From Polynucleobacter sp. 31A-FELB (GTDB lineage Bacteria; Pseudomonadota; Gammaproteobacteria; Burkholderiales; Burkholderiaceae), in the NCBI RefSeq assembly GCF_018882405.1, contig NZ_JACVOO010000001.1, positions 186,001-250,000 on the forward strand: DNA of 64,000 bases. The letters are read 5' to 3'. Position 1 is the stretch's first letter; every line of letters starts with the position of its first letter. The translations under genes and the position numbers were made by a program. Shown one piece after another: positions 4,561-14,329 of the stretch. The notes beneath the pieces were generated by a model. That model did no database searches. It worked only from the letters and a program-made list of their open reading frames with translations, and was not told the origin of the DNA.

Positions 4561-4597
4561 TGTGTACTGGGACTGAAAACGTAAAACAAAGAGAAAG

Positions 4598-4674
4598 TGG
4601 TCGGAGTACAAGGATTCGAACCTTGGACCCCCTGCTCCCAAAGCAGGTGCGCTACCAGGCTGCGCTACACTCCG
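4598..4674 (-). tRNA. tRNA-Pro (anticodon UGG)
   Basis: The reverse complement folds as a 77-nt cloverleaf. Acceptor strands are CGGAGTG and TACTCCG, the D-stem is GCGC...GCGC, and the anticodon arm CCTGC-TTTGGGA-GCAGG carries TGG. The T-arm is CAAGG-TTCGAAT-CCTTG, and the 3' CCA is encoded (4598-4600). Its antisense strand gives a spurious open frame that runs into the following gene. Confidence 0.95.
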
Positions 4675-4734
4675 ACGGAATCGATATTCTACACTGAGAT
4701 GGCCTACAAGGGCAAATACTGTAAGATTTGGTGC

Positions 4735-5100
4735 ATGAGCGCCTTATTTTTAAGCAAATTGAACAAGCAATTCCGGGGATGGATAGCCCTGAGCTTTTTG
4801 CTTGCCAGCTTAATAGGCACTCACTGGATTGGCTTTGCACATGGGATTGCCCACTCCGGAATACACCACCAAAACATCGAACTGAGTTGCGCAGATCAAG
4901 CCCCCACCCTTGGTCATAGCACTGCAAGTTGTCATCTATTAGACGCACTCACGCTTGCGGGCTTTATTGCCTCAACACCCAACTTATTTATTGGCAGCAA
5001 CTTCTTTCATGAAGCACAACTGGCATCTAATCAATCCCCTCCAGCCCGAATTCATATTGGGCTATATCAATCCAGAGCTCCCCCTAGCTTCATTCTGTAA
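4735..5100 (+). CDS. Small His-rich membrane/periplasmic protein next to a metal receptor
   Basis: 121 residues from ATG 4735; ATG 4699 is an alternative. The open frame extends further upstream only because it crosses the antisense of tRNA-Pro. A hydrophobic segment at about 15-35 acts as a signal or anchor. It is followed by a His-rich stretch with H30, H36, H40, H44 and H45, and by C52, H61, C66 and H67. Such metal-ligand-rich small proteins are found beside TonB-dependent metal receptors in betaproteobacteria, and the ZnuD-like receptor starts 89 bases downstream. A role in zinc or copper handling in the periplasm is inferred from this context. It also resembles the short DUF2946-like group, without certainty. 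Confidence 0.6.
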   Translation: MSALFLSKLNKQFRGWIALSFLLASLIGTHWIGFAHGIAHSGIHHQNIELSCADQAPTLGHSTASCHLLDALTLAGFIASTPNLFIGSNFFHEAQLASNQSPPARIHIGLYQSRAPPSFIL

Positions 5101-5189
5101 ATCATCTGACTCGCCAAATTGAATTGTTTGGCCTCTAGATTTATTGCGCCAATGAATACGCTGTGCGCATTTGGAATGAAGGAAACATC

Positions 5190-7292
5190 ATGCATCAAAT
5201 CGATAAACCATTGGCTAAGCACAAGCTAATCCCTGTTTTAGTTTCAGGACTCATTAGCACTACTGCTTTTACACAATCTCAGCCCTCTTTAGAGATAACC
5301 GCAACTGGATCTCAAGAGGCAACGCAAAGTATTTTGACGCCGACTAAGATTTTGCAAGGTGATGAGCTGTTAAACAAGCTAGGCACAACATTGGGTGCAA
5401 CACTGGCTAATGAGCTAGGTGTATCCGCAACAGGTTATGGCGCCGGATCATCTCGCCCAGTCATTCGTGGCCTTGAAGGCTCTCGTGTTCAGATTTTACA
5501 AAATGGTCTGTCAGTTGGCGATGTTTCTAACATCTCTCAGGATCATGCTGTTGGAAACAACATGCAAAATACCCATCAAGTAGAGATTTTGCGTGGTGCG
5601 GCCGCCCTACTCTATGGGTCTGGCTCAAGCGGTGGTCTCGTTAACGTAGTCAATGATCGCATCCTCACCAACTTACCGGATAGACCCACGGGTGCAGTCA
5701 ATACCAGCTACGAAACAGTGAACAATGGCAGAGCGGGTTCGGTTGAGGTGGATGGCGCCTTTGGATCTGTCGCGGTTCACGTGGATACCGCAATTAACAA
5801 TGCCAATAATTACCGTATACCAGGCAACTCAACCCAATCACAAGGTGAGCCTGCTGCTGGGTGGAGCATCCCGCCAGGCGGTGATGGCGGAAACAATTAC
5901 AGCGGTAAGTTGCCTAACTCTTTTAGTAATCAAAATAATTTAGGGGTTGGTGTTTCTTATATTGGGCAGAATGGTTATACGGGCGTTTCTGTTGAGCGTC
6001 TCAATAATAATTACGGGATTCCAACGCCTGAGGGTGGATCGATTAATCAGTCGCAAAATCGATATGACCTGCAACATCAAACGCGCGATCCATTTGATGG
6101 CTTCTCCTCTTTTAAATTTAGTGCCGCTAACTCCAATTACAACCATACCGAATTTAATAATGTGGGCGAAGCAGCATCTCTATGGAAGAACATTGCCAAT
6201 GAAGCTCGCTTTGAGCTTGCCCACAATCCACTGGCTGGTTGGAAAGGCACCTTCGGGGCGCAAGTATCTGCAGCCTCTTTAAACGCCACCGAAGTTGGCA
6301 CAGGGAGTTACGCGATTGTTCCGCCAACCAAGACCAACTCGAATGCCTTGTTTTGGATTGAGGAAGGTAAATGGAATTCTCTACAAGGTAATTTAGGTCT
6401 GCGTTACAACAACGTTGCGCAGAATCCCAATCTAGGAACGGCCTTAGAACCCCAGCCTACGGTTGATCCTACTGGAACAACACCTAGCATTGCCTTGCAG
6501 AATCGTAAATTTAATCTCATGTCCTACTCTGCGGGTGGCCTGTGGAGCTTTATGCAAGGTCATGGTGCTGGAGTCGCCTATACGGTCTCCCAACGTGCTC
6601 CAAGCGCTCAAGAGCTTTACTCATATGGTGCACATGAATCTACCGCCACATTCGACATTGGTAACCCCAATCTCAATAAAGAGACCTCCCATAACCTAGA
6701 GTTCAACATTCAGAAAAATAGCGGCTTAATGCGCGGCAAAGCAAGTGTGTACGCAAATCGCTTCAATAATTACATCTATGGTTATTACACAGGCGCAGCA
6801 ATTAACAATCCCGGTCAGGAAGGTGATGGCTTTAGCGTAGTCACAGCCCAACAAGCGGCTGCAACCATTAAAGGTGTTGAGGGTGAGCTCACCTATAACT
6901 GGCAACAACATGGTGTCGGTGGGCGCATATTTGGTGATGCCTCTCAAGGTACTTTTGATGCGGGCGGAAATTTACCCCTCCAGCCGGCTCCACGTTTAGG
7001 CGCAGAAATTGCTCATCAACACAATGGCTGGCTTACTAATGCTAGCTATATCTATAGCTATCAACAAAACCGCTTGGCAGCATGGGAGCAAGGTCCAGCA
7101 CCTAGCTACAACCTCTTAAATGCCGGAATTTCTTATACAGAGAAAATTAAGGATGTGAATTGGACTGTGTATATGAACTTAAAGAACTTACTCAATGAGC
7201 AAATTCGTTATGCCACTACGCCAATGGCTGTGAGATTGTATGCACCCCAACCTGGAAGAAGTCTGATGGTTGGGTTACGGGGTACGTTCTAG
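5190..7292 (+). CDS. TonB-dependent outer-membrane receptor, ZnuD-like (probable zinc/metal uptake)
   Basis: 700 residues from ATG 5190, chosen because GAAGGA lies 6 bases before it; an in-frame GTG at 5163 lacks this. A signal peptide covers about 1-30. The plug domain (about 45-160) has SRPVIRGLEGSRVQILQNG, DHAVGNN and ILRGAAALLYGSGSSGGLVN, which closely follow the ZnuD zinc receptor pattern. A 22-strand barrel follows and ends in the outer-membrane Phe signature (GLRGTF). The likely function is energy-dependent import of a metal or small metal complex, driven by TonB-ExbBD encoded elsewhere. The substrate is inferred from plug similarity and from the His-rich neighbour; heme or another metallophore remains possible. 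Confidence 0.85.
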   Translation: MHQIDKPLAKHKLIPVLVSGLISTTAFTQSQPSLEITATGSQEATQSILTPTKILQGDELLNKLGTTLGATLANELGVSATGYGAGSSRPVIRGLEGSRVQILQNGLSVGDVSNISQDHAVGNNMQNTHQVEILRGAAALLYGSGSSGGLVNVVNDRILTNLPDRPTGAVNTSYETVNNGRAGSVEVDGAFGSVAVHVDTAINNANNYRIPGNSTQSQGEPAAGWSIPPGGDGGNNYSGKLPNSFSNQNNLGVGVSYIGQNGYTGVSVERLNNNYGIPTPEGGSINQSQNRYDLQHQTRDPFDGFSSFKFSAANSNYNHTEFNNVGEAASLWKNIANEARFELAHNPLAGWKGTFGAQVSAASLNATEVGTGSYAIVPPTKTNSNALFWIEEGKWNSLQGNLGLRYNNVAQNPNLGTALEPQPTVDPTGTTPSIALQNRKFNLMSYSAGGLWSFMQGHGAGVAYTVSQRAPSAQELYSYGAHESTATFDIGNPNLNKETSHNLEFNIQKNSGLMRGKASVYANRFNNYIYGYYTGAAINNPGQEGDGFSVVTAQQAAATIKGVEGELTYNWQQHGVGGRIFGDASQGTFDAGGNLPLQPAPRLGAEIAHQHNGWLTNASYIYSYQQNRLAAWEQGPAPSYNLLNAGISYTEKIKDVNWTVYMNLKNLLNEQIRYATTPMAVRLYAPQPGRSLMVGLRGTF

Positions 7293-7300
7293 GCCCTAGA

Positions 7301-7828
7301 CTATGTCAGATAAGCCATCAGCACTGCACCAAATCCTCCAGAACCTAAGATCACCAATACTGGATTTATTTTGGTTCTGAGGATCAGGTAAAAACTCATC
7401 AAAGCAAGTGCTGCAGTAATCCCGCTAACTAGAGATGCCTTGCCAACGGCATAGACTCCAGAACCCATTAAGCCAATTGAAATAGGCTCTAATGCATTTT
7501 GTATAGATCGTCTCCAAGGATTTTCACCAAAATGATTCCAAAGGCGGCCCACATAAAAACATAGGAAGCTAGATGGCAGGAAAAAGGAAAGGAGTACCAC
7601 TCCCGCCCCAACTAGCCCGGCAACTTGATAGCCAATGACCAGAACCATCAACATATTGGGTCCAGGCGCTAATTGGCCAATACTGTAGATGTGAACAAAT
7701 TGAGTATGGTCAATACCAAACTGATGCGCCAGCAATGTTTGCATCTCAGGCAACACCGCAGTACCACCCCCTACCGCCAAAATAGAGAGCAAAGAAAAGC
7801 TGAGTGCCAACTGAATCAATGAGCTCAC
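7301..7828 (-). CDS. Chromate transporter family protein, C-terminal-half type
   Basis: 175 residues, a single CHR domain with five to six hydrophobic segments. It contains VGGGTAVLPEM near residue 20 and QLAPGPNMLMVLVIGY near residue 52, both CHR signatures. It overlaps its upstream partner by 4 bases (ATGA), so the two halves form one split ChrA-type transporter made by coupled translation. Family members move chromate or similar oxyanions. In this window the pair is the tail of a gene row starting with ppk2 behind a PhoB-box-like site, so the real substrate may relate to phosphate stress; that is inference. Confidence 0.85.
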   Translation of the reverse strand: MSSLIQLALSFSLLSILAVGGGTAVLPEMQTLLAHQFGIDHTQFVHIYSIGQLAPGPNMLMVLVIGYQVAGLVGAGVVLLSFFLPSSFLCFYVGRLWNHFGENPWRRSIQNALEPISIGLMGSGVYAVGKASLVSGITAALALMSFYLILRTKINPVLVILGSGGFGAVLMAYLT

Positions 7829-8391
7829 TGATTTACACTCGGCCGATAAAGATAGAGAGAAATCGGCGCCATGATCAAAATCACGTATGGCAAAGATAGC
7901 TTCATAACACTCATCAACAGAAAAGTAGAAATAATGATGAGCAAAGACTTTAAATGTCGCCAGTGATCACTGCCAATTTTGTAGGTAATAGCTGCTAAAA
8001 GGCCTGTTGCAGCTGCCGCAATACCGGCTAAGACAAAATTCATCAAGGGGTGATCAGCAGCGCCAACATAAATGATGCCAATGAGTAAAACAAAGATAGA
8101 TCCTGGAAGAATTAATCCTAAGCTTGCTATCAGCGCCCCTAGAAATCCACGGAAATGATCGCCAGCAAGCACAGCCAAATTGACGGAGTTAAGTCCTGGC
8201 ATCGTTTGACTAATGGCTAAATAAGCCATGAATTCATCGGCAGAAAGCCACTTACGCTTCTCGACCAGTAAGATCCGTTCATAAGCAATAATTCCGCCAC
8301 CAAAACTAACAGCGCCAACGATGAAAAATTGGATAAAAAGATCCAACAATTGTGGGGTCTTTTTAACGCTCAACTCAACATCAGCACTCAT
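7825..8391 (-). CDS. Chromate transporter family protein, N-terminal-half type
   Basis: 188 residues. Single CHR domain with VGAVSFGGGIIAYERILLVE near residue 25 and SQTMPGLNSVNLAVLAGDHF near residue 60, followed by several membrane helices. The motif reads MPGLNSVN where many family members have MPGPxxxN. The ATG at 8391 lies 2 bases after the stop of the CYTH-like gene, and the end overlaps the second half by 4 bases, so it is in the ppk2 operon. Named by family only; transport of chromate is not shown. Confidence 0.85.
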   Translation of the reverse strand: MSADVELSVKKTPQLLDLFIQFFIVGAVSFGGGIIAYERILLVEKRKWLSADEFMAYLAISQTMPGLNSVNLAVLAGDHFRGFLGALIASLGLILPGSIFVLLIGIIYVGAADHPLMNFVLAGIAAAATGLLAAITYKIGSDHWRHLKSLLIIISTFLLMSVMKLSLPYVILIMAPISLYLYRPSVNQ

Positions 8392-8393
8392 GC

Positions 8394-9221
8394 TTACTCC
8401 GGCTTTCCATAGACTAAGGCCGTTTTGGTGCTTCCAATCTCAAGCCAGCTTGATAGTTCAACCTGAAGTTTTTTAAAAAACTTATCTGCTCGCTTATGAG
8501 CCTTTGCCTGACCTCTGTTAGCATCATTAACGCGATATGAAAAAGCAAGCTCGCCAACAATCGGGTCGCCTACACTTTTCATCCAAATCGCTATCTCGCA
8601 ATGTGCCTGAACACCATCGCCAAAAACTAAATTACCAATTGGCAAGCATGCTTCTAAAATTTTATTAGTGCGTCCACCAACAATTCGAAGAGGCTCCTGC
8701 TTGTTGATAGATAGAGTGCTTAAACCAGGAAAGAATTTAATAGCACTAGCAAGAGACCGATCAAATAAACTATCGATAGGCACCGCATCAAGAATAGCGT
8801 TATTCGAATAAATTGATCTTGTTGAGCCCACAGCATCACCCCTCAGAATCTCTTCCTTAAGGCGCAATCTGGATTTAATGCTTTTCTTTGGCGACGGGTC
8901 AAATCGATGGGATTGGGCAAGGTCTTGAGTCCGGCACTTTAGAGTTACCTCACACCAATCATCGACCCAGATGTTTTGTCGCGATTCACGGACGCGCAGA
9001 ATAATATTGTTGCGTCGAAAATCTTCTCCAGGAGTATCGTAAAAATAGATATTACGTAGCCCTGTAGTAGCGTTATCCAGATGAAAAAACTCTACTTTAC
9101 TTTTCTTGCAAAACTGAAGGATCTGATCACTTAAAGCTGTAATCCTGCTTCTTCGATCAAGACCCTGCGGCTTGATGAGAAGCTTAAATTCTCTATTGGT
9201 AATTGCTAGCTTAGATTTCAT
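8394..9221 (-). CDS. CYTH-like (triphosphate tunnel) domain protein
   Basis: 275 residues without signal peptide or membrane segment. The N terminus has REFKLLIK (10-17), a partial match to the ExExK signature of CYTH enzymes. It then has YFYDTPGEDF, ILRVRES (about 74-80), a CEVTLKCR strand (about 88-95) and a later RLRLKEE. Alternating basic and acidic residues on strands like these line the substrate tunnel in CYTH proteins, which hydrolyse inorganic triphosphate, thiamine triphosphate or bind polyphosphate. Its position directly after polyphosphate kinase 2 supports a polyphosphate or triphosphate substrate. Because the first motif lacks one of the two glutamates, activity may differ. A 13-bp hairpin covers its ribosome-binding site. 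Confidence 0.6.
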   Translation of the reverse strand: MKSKLAITNREFKLLIKPQGLDRRSRITALSDQILQFCKKSKVEFFHLDNATTGLRNIYFYDTPGEDFRRNNIILRVRESRQNIWVDDWCEVTLKCRTQDLAQSHRFDPSPKKSIKSRLRLKEEILRGDAVGSTRSIYSNNAILDAVPIDSLFDRSLASAIKFFPGLSTLSINKQEPLRIVGGRTNKILEACLPIGNLVFGDGVQAHCEIAIWMKSVGDPIVGELAFSYRVNDANRGQAKAHKRADKFFKKLQVELSSWLEIGSTKTALVYGKPE

Positions 9222-9224
9222 TCG

Positions 9225-9254
9225 GTTAACCCCTCATATTGATGAGAGGTTAAC
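9225..9254 (-). promoter_or_regulatory. Hairpin sequestering the ribosome-binding site of the CYTH-like gene
   Basis: GTTAACC...GGTTAAC arms form a 13-bp stem with a 4-base loop. In the minus-strand RNA the single imperfect position becomes a G-U pair, so the stem is complete; on the plus strand it would be a C-A mismatch. The 3' arm contains GAGGGG, the Shine-Dalgarno candidate, and the stem ends 3 bases before the ATG at 9221. There is no U-run, so it is not a classical terminator. It may uncouple CYTH translation from ppk2 or mark an RNA-processing site. Confidence 0.55.
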
Positions 9255-9269
9255 ACTATCTAAGCAAGA

Positions 9270-10175
9270 TCAGTAGATCTCAGGGACGTACATATCCTTA
9301 GGAACTGGACCCCTCAAGTAGTCTGGATTATGGACACGTGCCGGCAGAGTGATTTCCGGATGATCAATCTCTTTGTAAGGAATCTGATCAAGTAGATGAG
9401 AGATGCAGTTTAAGCGCGCCTTCTTTTTATCATTTGCAGCAACCACCCACCACGGCGCCTCAGGGATATTGGTGCGATCTAGCATGGTCTCTTTTGCCTT
9501 TGTATAAGCTTCCCAGTGACGACGTGCGTCGAGATCCATTGGGCTTAACTTCCACTGCTTCAAGGGATCATGGATACGCATCATGAAGCGGTTGTACTGC
9601 TCATCATCTGAAATTGAGAACCAGTATTTAATTAATATGATCCCAGAGCGAATGATCATGCGCTCAAACTCGGGAACCGTACGTAAGAACTCTTCGTACT
9701 CATCATCGGTACAGAATCCCATGACCTTCTCAACACCAGCTCGGTTATACCAGCTACGGTCAAAGAGAACGATTTCACCGCCTGCGGGTAAATTGGATAC
9801 ATAACGCTGAAAATACCACTGGGTCTTTTCACGTTCGCTAGGTGCGGTCAGCGCGACTACTTTACAAACACGGGGATTGAGTCGCTGGGTAATACGTTTG
9901 ATAGCCCCGCCCTTACCCGCAGAGTCGCGGCCTTCAAACAAGACGGCCACCTTGAGTTTATTTTCAACAACCCAATCTTGGAGCTTTACTAATTCACCTT
10001 GAAGACGAAATAGCTCCTTAAAGTAAACGTTTCGCGGAATAATGGAGCTACTGCCACCGTCCTGCGACAGGCGATCATCATCGAGCTCCATTTCGAGCTC
10101 TTCATCCATGCTATCCAAGATTTCTTCTTGTGCACGCTGATACCACTCAGCCATCTCTTTGTGTTTTGATGTCAT
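9270..10175 (-). CDS. ppk2: Polyphosphate kinase 2
   Basis: 301 residues. An acidic N-terminal extension (18-40) precedes the PPK2 fold: Walker A FEGRDSAGKGG (80-90), lid region TAPSEREKTQWYFQRY (110-125) and Walker B VLFDRSWYNR (136-145). WKLSPMD and a C-terminal WWVVAANDKK follow. PPK2 enzymes transfer phosphate between polyphosphate and nucleotides, often favouring GDP/ADP phosphorylation from polyphosphate. Single-domain length and sequence suit class I. GAGGA lies 5 bases before the ATG. A PhoB-box-like site with a correctly placed -10 hexamer lies upstream at 10199-10232, so induction on phosphate shortage is likely. First gene of ppk2-CYTH-chrA-chrA. Confidence 0.95.
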   Translation of the reverse strand: MTSKHKEMAEWYQRAQEEILDSMDEELEMELDDDRLSQDGGSSSIIPRNVYFKELFRLQGELVKLQDWVVENKLKVAVLFEGRDSAGKGGAIKRITQRLNPRVCKVVALTAPSEREKTQWYFQRYVSNLPAGGEIVLFDRSWYNRAGVEKVMGFCTDDEYEEFLRTVPEFERMIIRSGIILIKYWFSISDDEQYNRFMMRIHDPLKQWKLSPMDLDARRHWEAYTKAKETMLDRTNIPEAPWWVVAANDKKKARLNCISHLLDQIPYKEIDHPEITLPARVHNPDYLRGPVPKDMYVPEIY

Positions 10176-10198
10176 TTTTTCCTCAAACCGATACTAGC

Positions 10199-10232
10199 TT
10201 TGTATCCCAAGGATATGACACTTTTATTACAA
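10199..10232 (-). promoter_or_regulatory. PhoB box and -10 of ppk2
   Basis: On the minus strand TTGTAAT-AAAA-GTGTCAT (10232 to 10215) matches two CTGTCAT-like units spaced by 4 bases, with 5 of 7 and 6 of 7 matches. Exactly 10 bases later TACAAA (10204-10199) sits at the -10 position, as in PhoB-activated promoters where the box replaces the -35. The start codon is 24 bases further on. Confidence 0.65.
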
Positions 10233-10238
10233 ATGCAG

Positions 10239-11015
10239 CTAAATGGTCTTTGCAATCAGCTCCTGAGCATGGGCTGCTAGCTGCTTCCTATCAAAGGATG
10301 ACTCTAAGTCATGCTCGTAAGGTGGCAAAACTGTCAAAGTAGCCTGCAAATCACGCGCACTCAGAATGTTGGCCATCGACTCCAACAAGCCCATATCACC
10401 AACAAAGGCCGGGGCTTCACTTCGCTCTCCAGTGGACTTGGAAATATATTGGATCGCCAGAGGAAAAACTGGGGCCCGCGAAACAATTGCCGCCTCAAAT
10501 AAATTGGGCCTGAATGGCAAAACACACTCTCCAACAGTAGAGGTGCCCTCAGGAAAGATGCAAATCGATTCGGTTTGCAAAACCTTGGCCATCTGACTAA
10601 CCACCTGTCTTGCATGGCGAGAGCTATCCCGGCGAATAAATACAGTGCCAAGTTGTTTAGCCATCCACCCAAATACTGGCCACCCCTCTACTTCCGACTT
10701 AGCCACAAACCTAATGGGCTTGAACGCATTGATGACATGAATATCTATCCATGAAATATGGTTGGATGCCATTAGATAAGGAGAATCCATTAATAACTGA
10801 TCTCCCTGAATGGATAGATGGATATTAAATATTTTTAAGAGACGCTTTGACCATAGTTGAATTTTTTGATCTTTCTGAGGCCTCTTGAGAAATGGAAAGA
10901 CAAAAGAGAGAGTGCAAACCCCGCTAAGAACGTGTGCCCCTATTTGGAACCAAAGACATAGCCTCAAGAATTTAGAGGTCTGTTGCAAATTTATGGTCGG
11001 TGGTAATTTATTCAT
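10239..11015 (-). CDS. 1-acylglycerol-3-phosphate acyltransferase (PlsC) family, candidate OlsA
   Basis: 258 residues. N-terminal hydrophobic segment (about 22-42), then the PlsC motifs NHISWID (85-91, catalytic H86 and D91) and FPEGTST (154-160). Family enzymes acylate lysophosphatidate; OlsA members acylate lyso-ornithine lipid instead. It is divergent from the plcP-agt-dgkA-olsB block and shares the 85-base gap holding a triple PhoB-box-like array. With an OlsB-like gene 2.4 kb away, an OlsA role is attractive. Sequence motifs alone cannot separate PlsC from OlsA, so no symbol is assigned. Confidence 0.85.
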   Translation of the reverse strand: MNKLPPTINLQQTSKFLRLCLWFQIGAHVLSGVCTLSFVFPFLKRPQKDQKIQLWSKRLLKIFNIHLSIQGDQLLMDSPYLMASNHISWIDIHVINAFKPIRFVAKSEVEGWPVFGWMAKQLGTVFIRRDSSRHARQVVSQMAKVLQTESICIFPEGTSTVGECVLPFRPNLFEAAIVSRAPVFPLAIQYISKSTGERSEAPAFVGDMGLLESMANILSARDLQATLTVLPPYEHDLESSFDRKQLAAHAQELIAKTI

Positions 11016-11036
11016 ATAGAAACAACAATATAAATC

Positions 11037-11065
11037 AAGTCATCAAACTGACTTAAAAGTGTCAT
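11037..11065 (+). promoter_or_regulatory. Triple-unit PhoB box upstream of plcP-agt-dgkA
   Basis: Three 7-mers in 11-base register: AAGTCAT (11037-11043), CTGACTT (11048-11054) and GTGTCAT (11059-11065), separated by CAAA and AAAA. They match CTGTCAT at 5, 5 and 6 of 7 positions. An AT-rich -10 candidate lies at about 11072-11081 and the ATG at 11101. The site is within the shared gap with the divergent acyltransferase gene. Confidence 0.65.
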
Positions 11066-11100
11066 GATGCATACATATTGAGTAGGCTTAATGCTTAATC

Positions 11101-11910
11101 ATGATGCATTACAGAGCTATCTGGATTTCAGATGTACACCTAGGAACATCAGGGTGTCAGGCAAACTACCTCCTCGATTTTCTAAAACACAATGAGGCAG
11201 ATAAATTTTATCTGGTCGGGGACATTATCGACGGCTGGCGCCTTAAGCAATCATTTTACTGGCCTCAAGCCCACAATGACGTAGTCCAAAAGTTACTACG
11301 AAAAGCCCGAAAAGGTGCCGAGGTCATTTACATCCCTGGTAATCATGACGAAGCTGCACGTCAATACTTCGGCATGTCTTTTGGCGATATTAAAGTTCAA
11401 GAAGAGGTTATTCATACAACGCTAGATGGTAGAAAACTCTGGGTTACCCATGGTGATCTGTTCGATGGTGTGATGCAATACGCAAAGTGGCTAGCTTATG
11501 TAGGCGACTCTCTCTACTCCTTTATTTTATATATCAACCGCTATTTCAATATGCTGCGGGTCAAAATGGGCCTGCAGTATTGGTCTCTTTCGCAATACTT
11601 AAAACATCAAGTTAAAAACGCAGTAAGTTACATAGCCGATTTCGAACACATCATGGCCAGAGAAGCGCGTTTACGCGATTGTGATGGCGTGGTATGTGGT
11701 CATATCCACAAAGCTGAAATTCGTGAGATCGATGGACTCCTTTACTGCAACGATGGCGACTGGGTTGAAAGCCTTTCTGCGCTTGTTGAAACCACATCCG
11801 GTGAACTCAAAATTATTTACTGGACCTACATCAAGGGCGACCCAGTTGTAGCCCCCGAAATTACTCTCCAACCCGTTGTTGAATCTCTCATTAAAGAGGC
11901 CGCTTTATGA
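11101..11910 (+). CDS. plcP: PlcP-like phospholipase C (calcineurin-type metallophosphoesterase)
   Basis: 269 residues. Metallophosphoesterase motifs are in order: SDVHLG (10-15, D11/H13), GDIIDG (40-45), GNHDE (80-84), THGD (116-119) and GHIHKAE (200-206), all metal ligands of this fold. The stretch GWRLKQSFYWPQAHNDVVQK is typical of the PlcP group, which is often misnamed UDP-2,3-diacylglucosamine hydrolase. PlcP cleaves phospholipid head groups in phosphate-starved bacteria, leaving diacylglycerol. It overlaps the GT4 glycosyltransferase by 4 bases, the known plcP-agt pairing, and has a PhoB-box-like array upstream. An LpxH-type function is the alternative but fits the context less well. 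Confidence 0.8.
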   Translation: MMHYRAIWISDVHLGTSGCQANYLLDFLKHNEADKFYLVGDIIDGWRLKQSFYWPQAHNDVVQKLLRKARKGAEVIYIPGNHDEAARQYFGMSFGDIKVQEEVIHTTLDGRKLWVTHGDLFDGVMQYAKWLAYVGDSLYSFILYINRYFNMLRVKMGLQYWSLSQYLKHQVKNAVSYIADFEHIMAREARLRDCDGVVCGHIHKAEIREIDGLLYCNDGDWVESLSALVETTSGELKIIYWTYIKGDPVVAPEITLQPVVESLIKEAAL

Positions 11911-12935
11911 AAATTATGATCATTACAGACGCATGGGATCCACAAGTAAATGGAGTGGTGCGAACACTAAAACAAACTCGTGCTGAATTAATTGCAATGG
12001 GTCATGAGGTTGAGATGATCACCCCAAATGGATTCAAATCAATTCCCTGCCCTACTTACCCAGATATTGCCCTCTCCCTATTTCCAGGAAAGGAAGTAGC
12101 TCGACGCATTAAAGAATTCGCTCCAGATGCAATGCATATTGCAACGGAAGGTCCCCTAGGTTTATCAGCACGCTCCTATGCAGTGAAGAATAGACTCCCA
12201 TTCTCAACCGCCTACCACACTCGCTTCCCTGAATACGTCAAGGCCCGCACAGGCATCCCGCTCGGCATCACCTATGCCTTTATCCGCTGGTTCCACGGTC
12301 CATCTATGGCAGTAATGGCGCCAACGATTGTGGTGAAGGATGACCTAGAGAAATATGGCCTATCGAATGTTGTACTGTGGTCACGTGGCGTAGATTTGGA
12401 CATCTTCAAAATGCAAGACTCCAAGGCGCTCAATACAGCACACCCCATTTTTCTCTACGTTGGTCGAGTTGCAGTTGAAAAGAATATCAACGCCTTCCTA
12501 GAGATCGATCTTCCGGGCTCCAAATGGGTTGTCGGCGATGGTCCTGCCATGGCCGGCATCAAGGAACAGTATCCTGACATTAATTATCTTGGCGTCTTGC
12601 AACAACACGAATTAGCCAAGGTTTATGCGGCAGCTGATGTATTTGTATTTCCAAGTAAGACCGATACCTTTGGCTTGGTTTTACTCGAAGCGATGGCCTG
12701 CGGCACGCCAGTGGCCGCCTACCCAGTAACTGGTCCAATTGATGTCCTAGGAAGCTCGCCAGCTGGTGCAATGCATGAAGATCTCCGGGAAGCCTGCCTT
12801 CAGGCCTTGAAAATTCCTCGCGAAGTCGCTAGAGCGCATGCCGAGAAGTTCTCCTGGCGCGCAGCATCCGAGCAGTTCGCAAATCACCTTAAGCCAGTAC
12901 CGTCAACAGAAGTTCACATTACAGCATTAGCCTAA
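11907..12935 (+). CDS. agt: GT4 glycosyltransferase, probable diacylglycerol glycosyltransferase (Agt-type)
   Basis: 342 residues. Rossmann-like N-terminal half begins MKIMIITDAWDPQVNGVVRT. The C-terminal half has the sugar-nucleotide-binding pattern FVFPSKTDTFGLVLLEAMAC (EX7E region, about 245-265) and GTPVAAY. HTRFPEY near residue 105 is typical of this group. Translational coupling to plcP (ATGA overlap) points to the enzyme that adds a sugar to the diacylglycerol made by PlcP, giving phosphate-free glycolipids that replace phospholipids. Sugar donor (UDP-glucose, UDP-galactose or UDP-glucuronate) cannot be read from the sequence. A mannosyltransferase role is the main alternative. Confidence 0.75.
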   Translation: MKIMIITDAWDPQVNGVVRTLKQTRAELIAMGHEVEMITPNGFKSIPCPTYPDIALSLFPGKEVARRIKEFAPDAMHIATEGPLGLSARSYAVKNRLPFSTAYHTRFPEYVKARTGIPLGITYAFIRWFHGPSMAVMAPTIVVKDDLEKYGLSNVVLWSRGVDLDIFKMQDSKALNTAHPIFLYVGRVAVEKNINAFLEIDLPGSKWVVGDGPAMAGIKEQYPDINYLGVLQQHELAKVYAAADVFVFPSKTDTFGLVLLEAMACGTPVAAYPVTGPIDVLGSSPAGAMHEDLREACLQALKIPREVARAHAEKFSWRAASEQFANHLKPVPSTEVHITALA

Positions 12936-12943
12936 GGTTTACT

Positions 12944-13345
12944 TTGACTACACCTTACAACATTAATCAAAATCCACACAAAGGAAATCGAGGGTTCGCT
13001 CGAGCCTGGTATGCAGCAAAAAATTCGTGGTGTGGATTTGTATACGCATTCAAAGAAGAGAGTGCATTTAGACAAGAATTGACTTTACTAGCTGTACTCT
13101 CTCCTATTGCATTTTTCTTGCCCATTAGCCCTCTTGAGAAATGCGCCCTCATCTCTTCACTAATTATGGTTTTGGTAGTTGAACTACTCAATTCCAGCGT
13201 TGAAGCAGCAATTGATCGGATCTCATTTGATCATCATGATCTCTCCAAAAGAGCTAAAGATTTTGGGTCAGCCGCTGTCATGCTCTCCCTTCTCATTGCA
13301 ACTGCATTCTGGGCAACGATTTGCATACCGCTTGTCATCAATTAG
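12944..13345 (+). CDS. dgkA: Diacylglycerol kinase (DgkA)
   Basis: 133 residues from a TTG start at 12944, supported by AAGG 7 bases upstream; no ATG is available before the conserved region. Three membrane helices and the family motif VELLNSSVEAAIDR (79-92, with E80, N83, E87) are present, then SKRAKDFGSAAV (101-112). DgkA phosphorylates diacylglycerol to phosphatidate in the inner membrane. Lying 8 bases after agt, it is co-transcribed with plcP and agt and would compete for or recycle the diacylglycerol released by PlcP. A PhoB-box-like site for the next gene overlaps its stop codon. Slightly longer than the usual 120 residues because of the N terminus. Confidence 0.9.
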   Translation: MTTPYNINQNPHKGNRGFARAWYAAKNSWCGFVYAFKEESAFRQELTLLAVLSPIAFFLPISPLEKCALISSLIMVLVVELLNSSVEAAIDRISFDHHDLSKRAKDFGSAAVMLSLLIATAFWATICIPLVIN

Positions 13346-13365
13346 TCATGCAGTGCACTTACGAT
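13332..13365 (+). promoter_or_regulatory. PhoB box and -10 of the olsB-like gene
   Basis: TTGTCAT-CAAT-TAGTCAT (13332-13349) gives two CTGTCAT-like units (6 and 5 of 7) spaced by 4 bases. TACGAT follows exactly 10 bases later (13360-13365). The box overlaps the dgkA stop codon TAG (13343-13345), so the next gene has its own start inside the operon. Confidence 0.6.
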
Positions 13366-13390
13366 CTCAAGATACACATTAAGGAAAACT

Positions 13391-14329
13391 ATGTCTGATA
13401 TTCCAAACCCATTAGGCGCATTCGATATCTTCAATTCCCGTTTTGAAGGTAAACCAAGAAAATTAAAAAAACATAAAGCCGAAGCGCTTAAGAAGTTATT
13501 TTCCAAAAAGATTGCTAAAAAGCTATTTGGCAAAAAATTTGCCTTGCGTACTCGCGCTGAATTAACAGCGATAGAGCCTGTTCAAGTCGATAAGGCAATT
13601 TCAAAACCTAAACGCCCTGCCTTTCAAATCACCTGGGCAAGTAATCCAAGTGAAATTAAAGAAGCTCAGCGCTTGCGCTACAAGGTATTTGCAGACGAGA
13701 TGGGCGCAAACCTACCGGCCAATTCTGAGGGTCTCGATGTTGATGAGTTTGATGCCTATTGCGATCATCTCCTAATTCGCGATCAAGAGTCACTCAAGGT
13801 AGTAGGAACCTATCGCGTTCTCCCACCACATAAGGCTATGGAGATTGGTCGCCTGTACTCTGATTCTGAGTTTGATTTATCACGCTTAAATCACTTACGC
13901 CCAAAGATGGTTGAGCTTGGCAGATCTTGTGTACATGCCGATTACCGCTCTGGAGCAGTCATTATGGCTCTTTGGAGTGGTTTGGCACAGTATATGCAAA
14001 AGCATAATTATGAAATCATGTTGGGTTGTGCGAGCATCCCAATGGCTGATGGCGGTCACTTCGCAGCAAGCCTCTATAACTCTCTGAGCAATGAGCAAAT
14101 GGCGCCAGTAGAAAATCATGCATTCCCTCGCCTACCCTTACCACTGGACCGACTAAACGGCGGTCTAGAAGTGGAGCCGCCACCTTTGATTAAGGGCTAC
14201 CTCAAATTAGGCGCCAAGATTTGTAGCGCACCCGCTTGGGATCCAGACTTTAATACTGCAGACGTTTTGACAATGCTGCGTCTTTCAGAAATTAATCCAC
14301 GTTACGCGAAGCATTTCTTGGGCCTGTGA
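13391..14329 (+). CDS. olsB: OlsB-like ornithine N-acyltransferase (GNAT fold)
   Basis: 312 residues with AAGGAAAA before the ATG. A Lys-rich N-terminal extension (about 20-55) precedes the acyltransferase domain (about 78-300). The domain has QRLRYKVFADEMG, LGRSCVHADYRSG and MLGCASIPMADGGH, the pattern of OlsB/hemolysin-type acyltransferases. OlsB attaches 3-hydroxyacyl chains from acyl carrier protein to ornithine, the first step of ornithine lipid synthesis; OlsA completes it. The PhoB-box-like promoter and the neighbouring plcP-agt-dgkA genes fit replacement of phospholipids on phosphate starvation. The basic extension could bind anionic membrane. Acceptor specificity is inferred. Confidence 0.75.
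   Translation: MSDIPNPLGAFDIFNSRFEGKPRKLKKHKAEALKKLFSKKIAKKLFGKKFALRTRAELTAIEPVQVDKAISKPKRPAFQITWASNPSEIKEAQRLRYKVFADEMGANLPANSEGLDVDEFDAYCDHLLIRDQESLKVVGTYRVLPPHKAMEIGRLYSDSEFDLSRLNHLRPKMVELGRSCVHADYRSGAVIMALWSGLAQYMQKHNYEIMLGCASIPMADGGHFAASLYNSLSNEQMAPVENHAFPRLPLPLDRLNGGLEVEPPPLIKGYLKLGAKICSAPAWDPDFNTADVLTMLRLSEINPRYAKHFLGL

Follow-up and report, generated by a model that had tools for sequence, protein, structure and literature searches.

We analyzed a run of four genes, all on the minus strand, within a 64,000-nt stretch of Polynucleobacter sp. 31A-FELB DNA (assembly GCF_018882405.1, contig NZ_JACVOO010000001.1, positions 186,001–250,000; hereafter the window, whose own coordinates are used throughout), which derives from a 2.24 Mb genome in 48 contigs. 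The run begins with ppk2 (9270–10175), encoding a 301-residue polyphosphate kinase 2, and continues with a gene for a 275-residue CYTH-like protein of predicted triphosphate-tunnel (TTM) fold (8394–9221) and with chrN (7825–8391; 188 residues) and chrC (7301–7828; 175 residues), the first and second halves of a split ChrA-type transporter. A spacer of 48 nt separates ppk2 from the CYTH gene, 2 nt separate the latter from chrN, and chrN and chrC overlap by 4 nt; open reading frame coordinates and Pfam thus bear out the unidirectional order and tight distal joints described in an earlier note on this DNA. The kinase matches PF03976 (E = 2.6e-107) and is a member of the TIGR03707 equivalog (372.9 bits, cut-off 301.8). 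ChrN and ChrC each carry a PF02417 domain (122.6 and 111.5 bits, respectively; cut-off 28.6) in two adjoining single-domain genes, the arrangement of a CHR short-chain pair, and score 31 to 48 bits against the NCBIfam ChrA/ChrB equivalogs, for which the cut-off is 250. A sequence search of the Protein Data Bank (PDB) with chrN found no CHR structure and returned one uncharacterized chain of 93 residues (E = 0.0042). Proteins of the ChrA type occur widely and take their name from chromate, a compound that many of their owners seldom meet.

Judged by gene neighborhoods in several genome samples, the conserved unit in the freshwater genus Polynucleobacter and its relatives is CYTH-chrN-chrC (hereafter the cassette), and the ppk2 linkage, with its putative phosphate switch, looks like a local, lineage-specific addition. 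In a sample of 121 genomes of the genus, the CYTH protein is present in 53 and a close chrN (at least 66% identity) likewise in 53; the two coincide and adjoin in 52 genomes, and the odd ones, G092 and G052, are cut by contig ends. ppk2 lies directly upstream of the cassette in 38 genomes and, split over two contigs, in G094 (39 of 53), and does not do so in the other 14. No close ppk2 match was found in three of the 53 cassette genomes, namely, the complete G010 and the fragmented G037 and G091. Conversely, ppk2 is followed directly by a convergent TonB receptor gene, that is, by an empty site, in G076, G086, and G117, and by a second PPK2-like gene without a cassette in G073 and G035. The cassette is found between glmM and the TonB receptor gene in six genomes, and eight others use two further sites. 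Decaying copies were also seen: one is interrupted by stops within chrN (L010, genome G116), and in another (L201, genome G397), the CYTH, ppk2, and receptor genes are broken and the chrN and chrC frames are intact.

A scan of named genomes, which was CYTH-based, used two short peptide patterns without selection on chr genes, and under-samples distant relatives, gave 78 loci, including Sheuella, Zwartia, Jezberella, a Rhizobiales bacterium, and many metagenome-assembled genomes. The closest CYTH relative listed is from Polynucleobacter sp. 78F-HAINBA (99% identity). Three contig-end pieces with no usable CYTH frame (L171, L174, and L177) were dropped, leaving 75 loci, in 73 of which chrN is the next gene on the same strand, with a 4-nt overlap in 48 (start codons assigned mechanically); of the two exceptions, L129 is cut by a contig end, and L158, from Jezberella, is truly devoid of chr genes. 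The same-strand upstream neighbor is PPK2 in 26 loci, a SulP permease in 13, glmM in six, DUF1275 in five, and another gene in 11, with none in 14; SulP was named by Pfam in one locus and DUF1275 in two, and the rest by BLAST to those. The SulP genes lie within 173 nt of the cassette (L136, L137, L139, L140, L141, L143, L157, L159, L160, L164, L165, L175, and L176). As ppk2 adjoins 39 of 53 cassettes in the genus and 26 of 75 in the named loci, the ppk2-CYTH-chr unit of the earlier note is not supported as a general one.

In broader samples, the CYTH protein is found in 25 of 398 genomes of the family, all belonging to the genus, and in two of 369 genomes of the class, the window's own and G543, a member of another family. 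The G543 locus holds a CYTH gene whose product is 28% identical and, behind it, chrN (37%) and chrC (44%); the 13 kb read there contain no PPK2. The phylum sample has 12 CYTH genomes among 398: two belong to the genus, two others (G1012 and G921) harbor CYTH-chrN-chrC (profile scores of 119 and 150 bits), and eight have weaker relatives (23 to 43 bits). A sister TTM-like family characterized by an SREYK motif was seen in L219 (5659–6540), L221, L222, and L224 (5988–6860), with N termini that by eye resemble signal peptides; in L219 and L224, a phytase-like PF13449 gene precedes the TTM-like gene. A tblastn search of plasmid records with the CYTH protein gave no match. In the reverse direction, a search of the class sample with chrN scored 317 bits for the window, 263 for G492, and 186 for G543, followed by a gap to at most 132. 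G492 (L268, 6140–7737) encodes a cassette-type chrN-chrC pair (262 and 261 bits) overlapped by an Lrp/AsnC regulator gene in the place where CYTH would be, and no CYTH match was found anywhere in its genome. Pairwise CYTH and chrN distances correlate with r = 0.83, a value uncorrected for shared species history. The earlier note had named a lack of conserved linkage as a result that would refute its proposal, and the survey divides that proposal: linkage to ppk2 is lineage specific, and linkage within CYTH-chrN-chrC is very strong.

The phosphate signal follows the same division. A Pho-box-like site on the minus strand (10215–10232; TTGTAATAAAAGTGTCAT) begins 57 nt before the ppk2 start and scores 14 of 17 against the E. 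coli consensus, which ties it as the best of the 64 kb with a site in the plsC-plcP divergent region. Five first-order Markov simulations of the window gave ≈1.2 sites of at least 13 per window and none at 14; the window has six, four of which precede ppk2, plsC/plcP, pstS, and olsB, with two elsewhere. Sites upstream of phoA and phoB in the window reach just 9.5 of 17, so this consensus misses some expected genes. An upstream site of at least 12 is found in 41 of 44 loci with ppk2 orthologs, and in all five fetched ppk2 loci that lack the cassette, the site scores 13 to 15. At the 14 relocated cassettes, those not behind ppk2, the best score before CYTH is 11.0 of 17 (Markov p of at least 0.12), a ceiling that also applies directly upstream of ppk2-linked CYTH genes; the relocated set leaves out L025, whose contig ends at the gene and whose genome is the G094 counted above as ppk2-linked. 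Thus, a box precedes the first gene where that gene is ppk2 and was not found before relocated cassettes, and since the site is also kept at cassette-less ppk2 genes, the Pho signal, as far as these site scores go, travels with ppk2 and not with the cassette. The PhoB-like promoter of the earlier note is therefore supported as a PhoB-type site before ppk2, and relocated cassettes show no such site above 11 of 17.

The ppk2–CYTH spacer contains an inverted repeat on the minus strand (9225–9254) that is predicted to fold into a hairpin of −18.8 kcal/mol, the 3′ arm of which holds, by eye, the likely ribosome-binding site of the CYTH gene (GAGGGG, 9230–9235). We compared single-sequence folds with dinucleotide shuffles and obtained z values below −2 in 31 of 36 ppk2-linked loci (many of them close relatives and thus not independent), in none of the 14 relocated loci, and in one of 32 named loci without Polynucleobacter in the title; outside the ppk2-linked set, the CYTH start codon was assumed to lie seven codons before a TNRE motif, and the spacer and hairpin counts exclude L089, whose frame is without this motif. 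By this measure, a hairpin covering the likely ribosome-binding site of CYTH is a mark of the ppk2-linked form. G-U pairs account for 100 of the 523 stem pairs, which suits an RNA better than a DNA operator. RNAalifold found no consensus structure in a gapped MAFFT alignment of 34 of the 36 spacers (omitting L008, which is the same as L007, and the very long L036), so support for the hairpin comes from single-sequence folds against shuffles and not from covariation; an Rfam search of window positions 5000–12000 gave no match. A role as terminator is disfavored: no T-tract follows the hairpin, and a terminator scan did not call it, which suggests that it poses no clear barrier to cotranscription of ppk2 and CYTH. 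The simplest reading is that the hairpin would act as a translational brake on the cassette.

The product of the first cassette gene is only weakly recognizable by sequence. Pfam CYTH (PF01928) scores 17.3 bits, below the gathering cut-off of 23.2, NCBIfam yields no family at E = 0.01, and a CYTH profile search of PDB sequences found no TTM match, the only hit being an unrelated chain (E = 0.19). The AlphaFold2 model, built with 49 sequences, has a pLDDT of 89.2 and a pTM of 0.87, and its structural matches are led by TTM/CYTH proteins: HpAC1 (Z = 12.7), YgiF (12.4), AtTTM3 (12.1), and SaTTM (10.8). Vacuolar transporter chaperone (VTC) chains follow at Z = 8.0 to 8.9 (Vtc4, 3g3r, 8.9); since Mediator subunits score as high as 9.0, little can be concluded from the Vtc4 value by itself. 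The best Foldseek match has E = 1.5e-7, with query TM-scores of just 0.3 to 0.5. An hhalign profile alignment against the family's canonical CYTH proteins covers residues 7–97 at 93% probability and, together with the predicted fold, supports the subthreshold CYTH call; the confident model thus assigns the protein a TTM fold. The further claim of the earlier note, that a TTM-fold protein is linked to an oxyanion-type carrier, gains support from this predicted fold and from the CYTH-chrN-chrC adjacency. In four members of the genus (L067, L073, L075, and L077), the protein has a Lys-rich N-terminal extension of ≈80 residues.

In the hhalign alignment, N9 takes the position of the first Glu of the ExExK motif, E11 that of the second, and K13 that of the Lys, and the motif therefore reads NxExK in 75 of 75 named loci; the strand-3 RxR and the strand-4 Lys are present in all of them as R76, R78, and K95. 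Also identical in all 75 are K122, E124, E190, E224, and K266. Relative to the TTM/CYTH triphosphatases (E. coli YgiF, AtTTM3, and SaTTM), the window protein thus shares the predicted fold, the ExExK Lys, the RxR, and the strand-4 Lys and differs in its Asn for the first ExExK Glu and, by motif matching, in a Lys for the strand-5 Glu and an Ala for the second Glu of the ExE in the last barrel strand. For the ExE, motif matching gives E224-x-A226 (position 226 is Ala, Ser, or Gly); the C-terminal half could not be usefully aligned with hhalign. The three distant linked proteins (L200, L215, and L216) have Tyr at position 9 and Lys at position 122; all eight unlinked relatives have Glu at position 122, with Ser, Cys, or Arg at position 9. 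The basic residues K13, R76, R78, K95, and K266 are kept in the named loci and in the distant linked and unlinked relatives alike. According to published work, AtTTM3 has an acidic patch, made up of Glu-2, -4, -90, and -171, with additional metal sites, and Vtc4 is basic at this place (PMC4641920); metal 2 is held by the second ExE Glu (PMC8233210), and triphosphatases of the TTM type depend on their two-metal site (PMC4641920, PMC8233210). Should the motif matching be correct, metal site 1, one patch Glu, and the basic tunnel would be preserved in the linked proteins, most of site 2 would be lacking, and a Lys at position 122 would go with chr linkage. Because the first ExExK Glu is absent and a Lys apparently replaces another catalytic Glu, ligand binding, gating, or transfer looks likelier for this protein than hydrolysis.

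We tentatively favor the reading that CYTH-chrN-chrC encodes a TTM-assisted split oxyanion transporter of the CHR superfamily. By family, ChrN and ChrC would be its two halves, and the first gene would provide a cytosolic protein, its TTM fold predicted with good confidence, that most likely binds triphosphate, polyphosphate, or a similar polyanion in its basic tunnel and that may gate or assist the transporter rather than hydrolyze its ligand. The SulP neighbors and the Lrp case of G492 point to sulfate- or chromate-like oxyanions. Where the cassette stands behind ppk2, the Pho-box promoter of that gene probably drives cassette transcription under phosphate stress, and the predicted hairpin over the ribosome-binding site would limit translation of the TTM gene; this arrangement suggests that phosphate control is a lineage-specific way of running the cassette and not its core function, and the ppk2 neighborhood should not be read as cassette function. 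The closest parallel for the transporter is B. subtilis YwrB-YwrA (Chr3N/Chr3C, with the Lrp-type ChrS), in which two single-domain CHR genes are likewise reported to form one efflux system (PMC8940164); the Polynucleobacter cassette differs in being led by a TTM-fold gene. Among the 5.39 million open-license papers searched, we found none that joins CYTH or the CYTH domain with chromate transport or a chromate transporter. Several observations weigh against the favored reading. Jezberella carries CYTH without chr genes, the eight distant TTM relatives do not adjoin chr genes, and one of the three cassette-type transporters in the class sample, that of G492, is without a TTM protein, which is thus not required by every such transporter. 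Furthermore, the C-terminal half is unaligned to canonical CYTH proteins, with the E224-x-A226 and K122 assignments coming from motif matching and multiple alignment, and E11, one of the four acidic-patch Glu residues, is retained. A conserved TTM partner would give a concrete handle on the role of one ChrA subfamily and bears on whether TTM folds can act as transporter subunits or sensors.

An alternative, which we consider unlikely, is a polyphosphate or phosphate-stress unit in which PPK2, the TTM protein, and ChrN-ChrC cooperate, with the transporter moving phosphate or exporting an analogue of it, for example arsenate that has entered through derepressed Pst. The Pho site at ppk2, the 39 of 53 linked genus genomes, and the Pho-type genes nearby are consistent with such a unit, as are data from cyanobacteria: in the sections of the sources available, the Synechococcus 7002 chrA mutant shows 64% of wild-type growth when phosphate is deficient and 99% in standard medium, with chrA expression rising on phosphate deprivation (PMC11358556), and genes listed as over-represented in phosphate-poor seas include a chromate-transporter cluster of Prochlorococcus along with PhoR and, in one list, PhoB (PMC3686209). 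These cases resemble the locus in tying ChrA to phosphate deficiency and differ in that those sections mention no TTM partner, whereas the phosphate link here is confined to ppk2-linked loci. Against cooperation stand the cassettes without a ppk2 neighbor or without a close ppk2 match in the genome, the five fetched ppk2 loci without a cassette, and the 11-of-17 ceiling at relocated cassettes. The phosphate transport step that the earlier note considered possible, like one for polyphosphate, finds no direct support at this locus, and the cyanobacterial data leave a phosphate role open. Somewhat more doubtful still is a VTC-like two-part machine, in which a nonhydrolytic TTM protein would feed or sense a phosphate polymer or triphosphate and link it to the passage of oxyanions through ChrN-ChrC. 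The yeast complex, with the TTM domain of Vtc4 joined to membrane helices, offers a likeness in pairing a TTM protein that has a reduced acidic patch with a membrane transporter; the cassette consists instead of separate genes with an unrelated membrane part, and Pfam finds no VTC family (at E = 0.1) and no SPX domain in the TTM protein. Such a machine, if real, would tie the natural role of a "chromate" transporter subfamily to phosphate-polymer chemistry.

We regard as similarly improbable, on a par with the phosphate-stress unit, a plain chromate- or sulfate-type exporter in which the TTM protein occupies a regulator's place and controls expression or activity via a nucleotide-like ligand. 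The Lrp/AsnC gene of G492 in the CYTH position, the Lrp-type ChrS of the B. subtilis pair, and the SulP permeases upstream of 13 of 75 cassettes speak for it, but Pfam finds no DNA-binding domain in the TTM protein. The least probable of these accounts, in our estimate, is that linkage reflects shared history alone, the genes being neighbors by recent transfer with unrelated functions. Patchy occurrence (53 of the 121 genus genomes and, all within one genus, 25 of the 398 family genomes) and changes of cassette location would fit; however, gene order with near-zero gaps persists at 28% CYTH identity and across many neighborhoods, which makes such a history-only linkage unlikely, and the correlated CYTH and chrN distances argue in the same direction.

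The cassette is flanked on its distal side by a convergent gene for a ZnuD-like TonB-dependent receptor (5163–7292, plus strand; NCBIfam NF038289, 365 bits, under the 950 cut-off), which together with a small adjoining protein (4597–7292 for the pair) flanks the cassette at ppk2 and glmM sites alike. Upstream of ppk2 and outside the cassette lies an OlsA/PlsC-like acyltransferase gene (10239–11015, minus strand; PF01553; NF052552, 134.6 bits, under the 300 cut-off). Taken together, the surroundings in the window comprise OlsA- and OlsB-like genes (NCBIfam, below cut-off), a metallophosphoesterase, a glycosyltransferase, dgkA, ppx, and alkaline phosphatase, as well as a PhoR-like kinase, a PhoB-like regulator, phoU, and a PstS-like protein. 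Finally, the OlsA-like, metallophosphoesterase, glycosyltransferase, dgkA, and OlsB-like genes fall within 10239–14329 with two Pho-box-like sites (11048–11065 and 13332–13349), a possible island of phosphate-stress lipid remodeling in which we presume that the metallophosphoesterase and glycosyltransferase may be PlcP and Agt.

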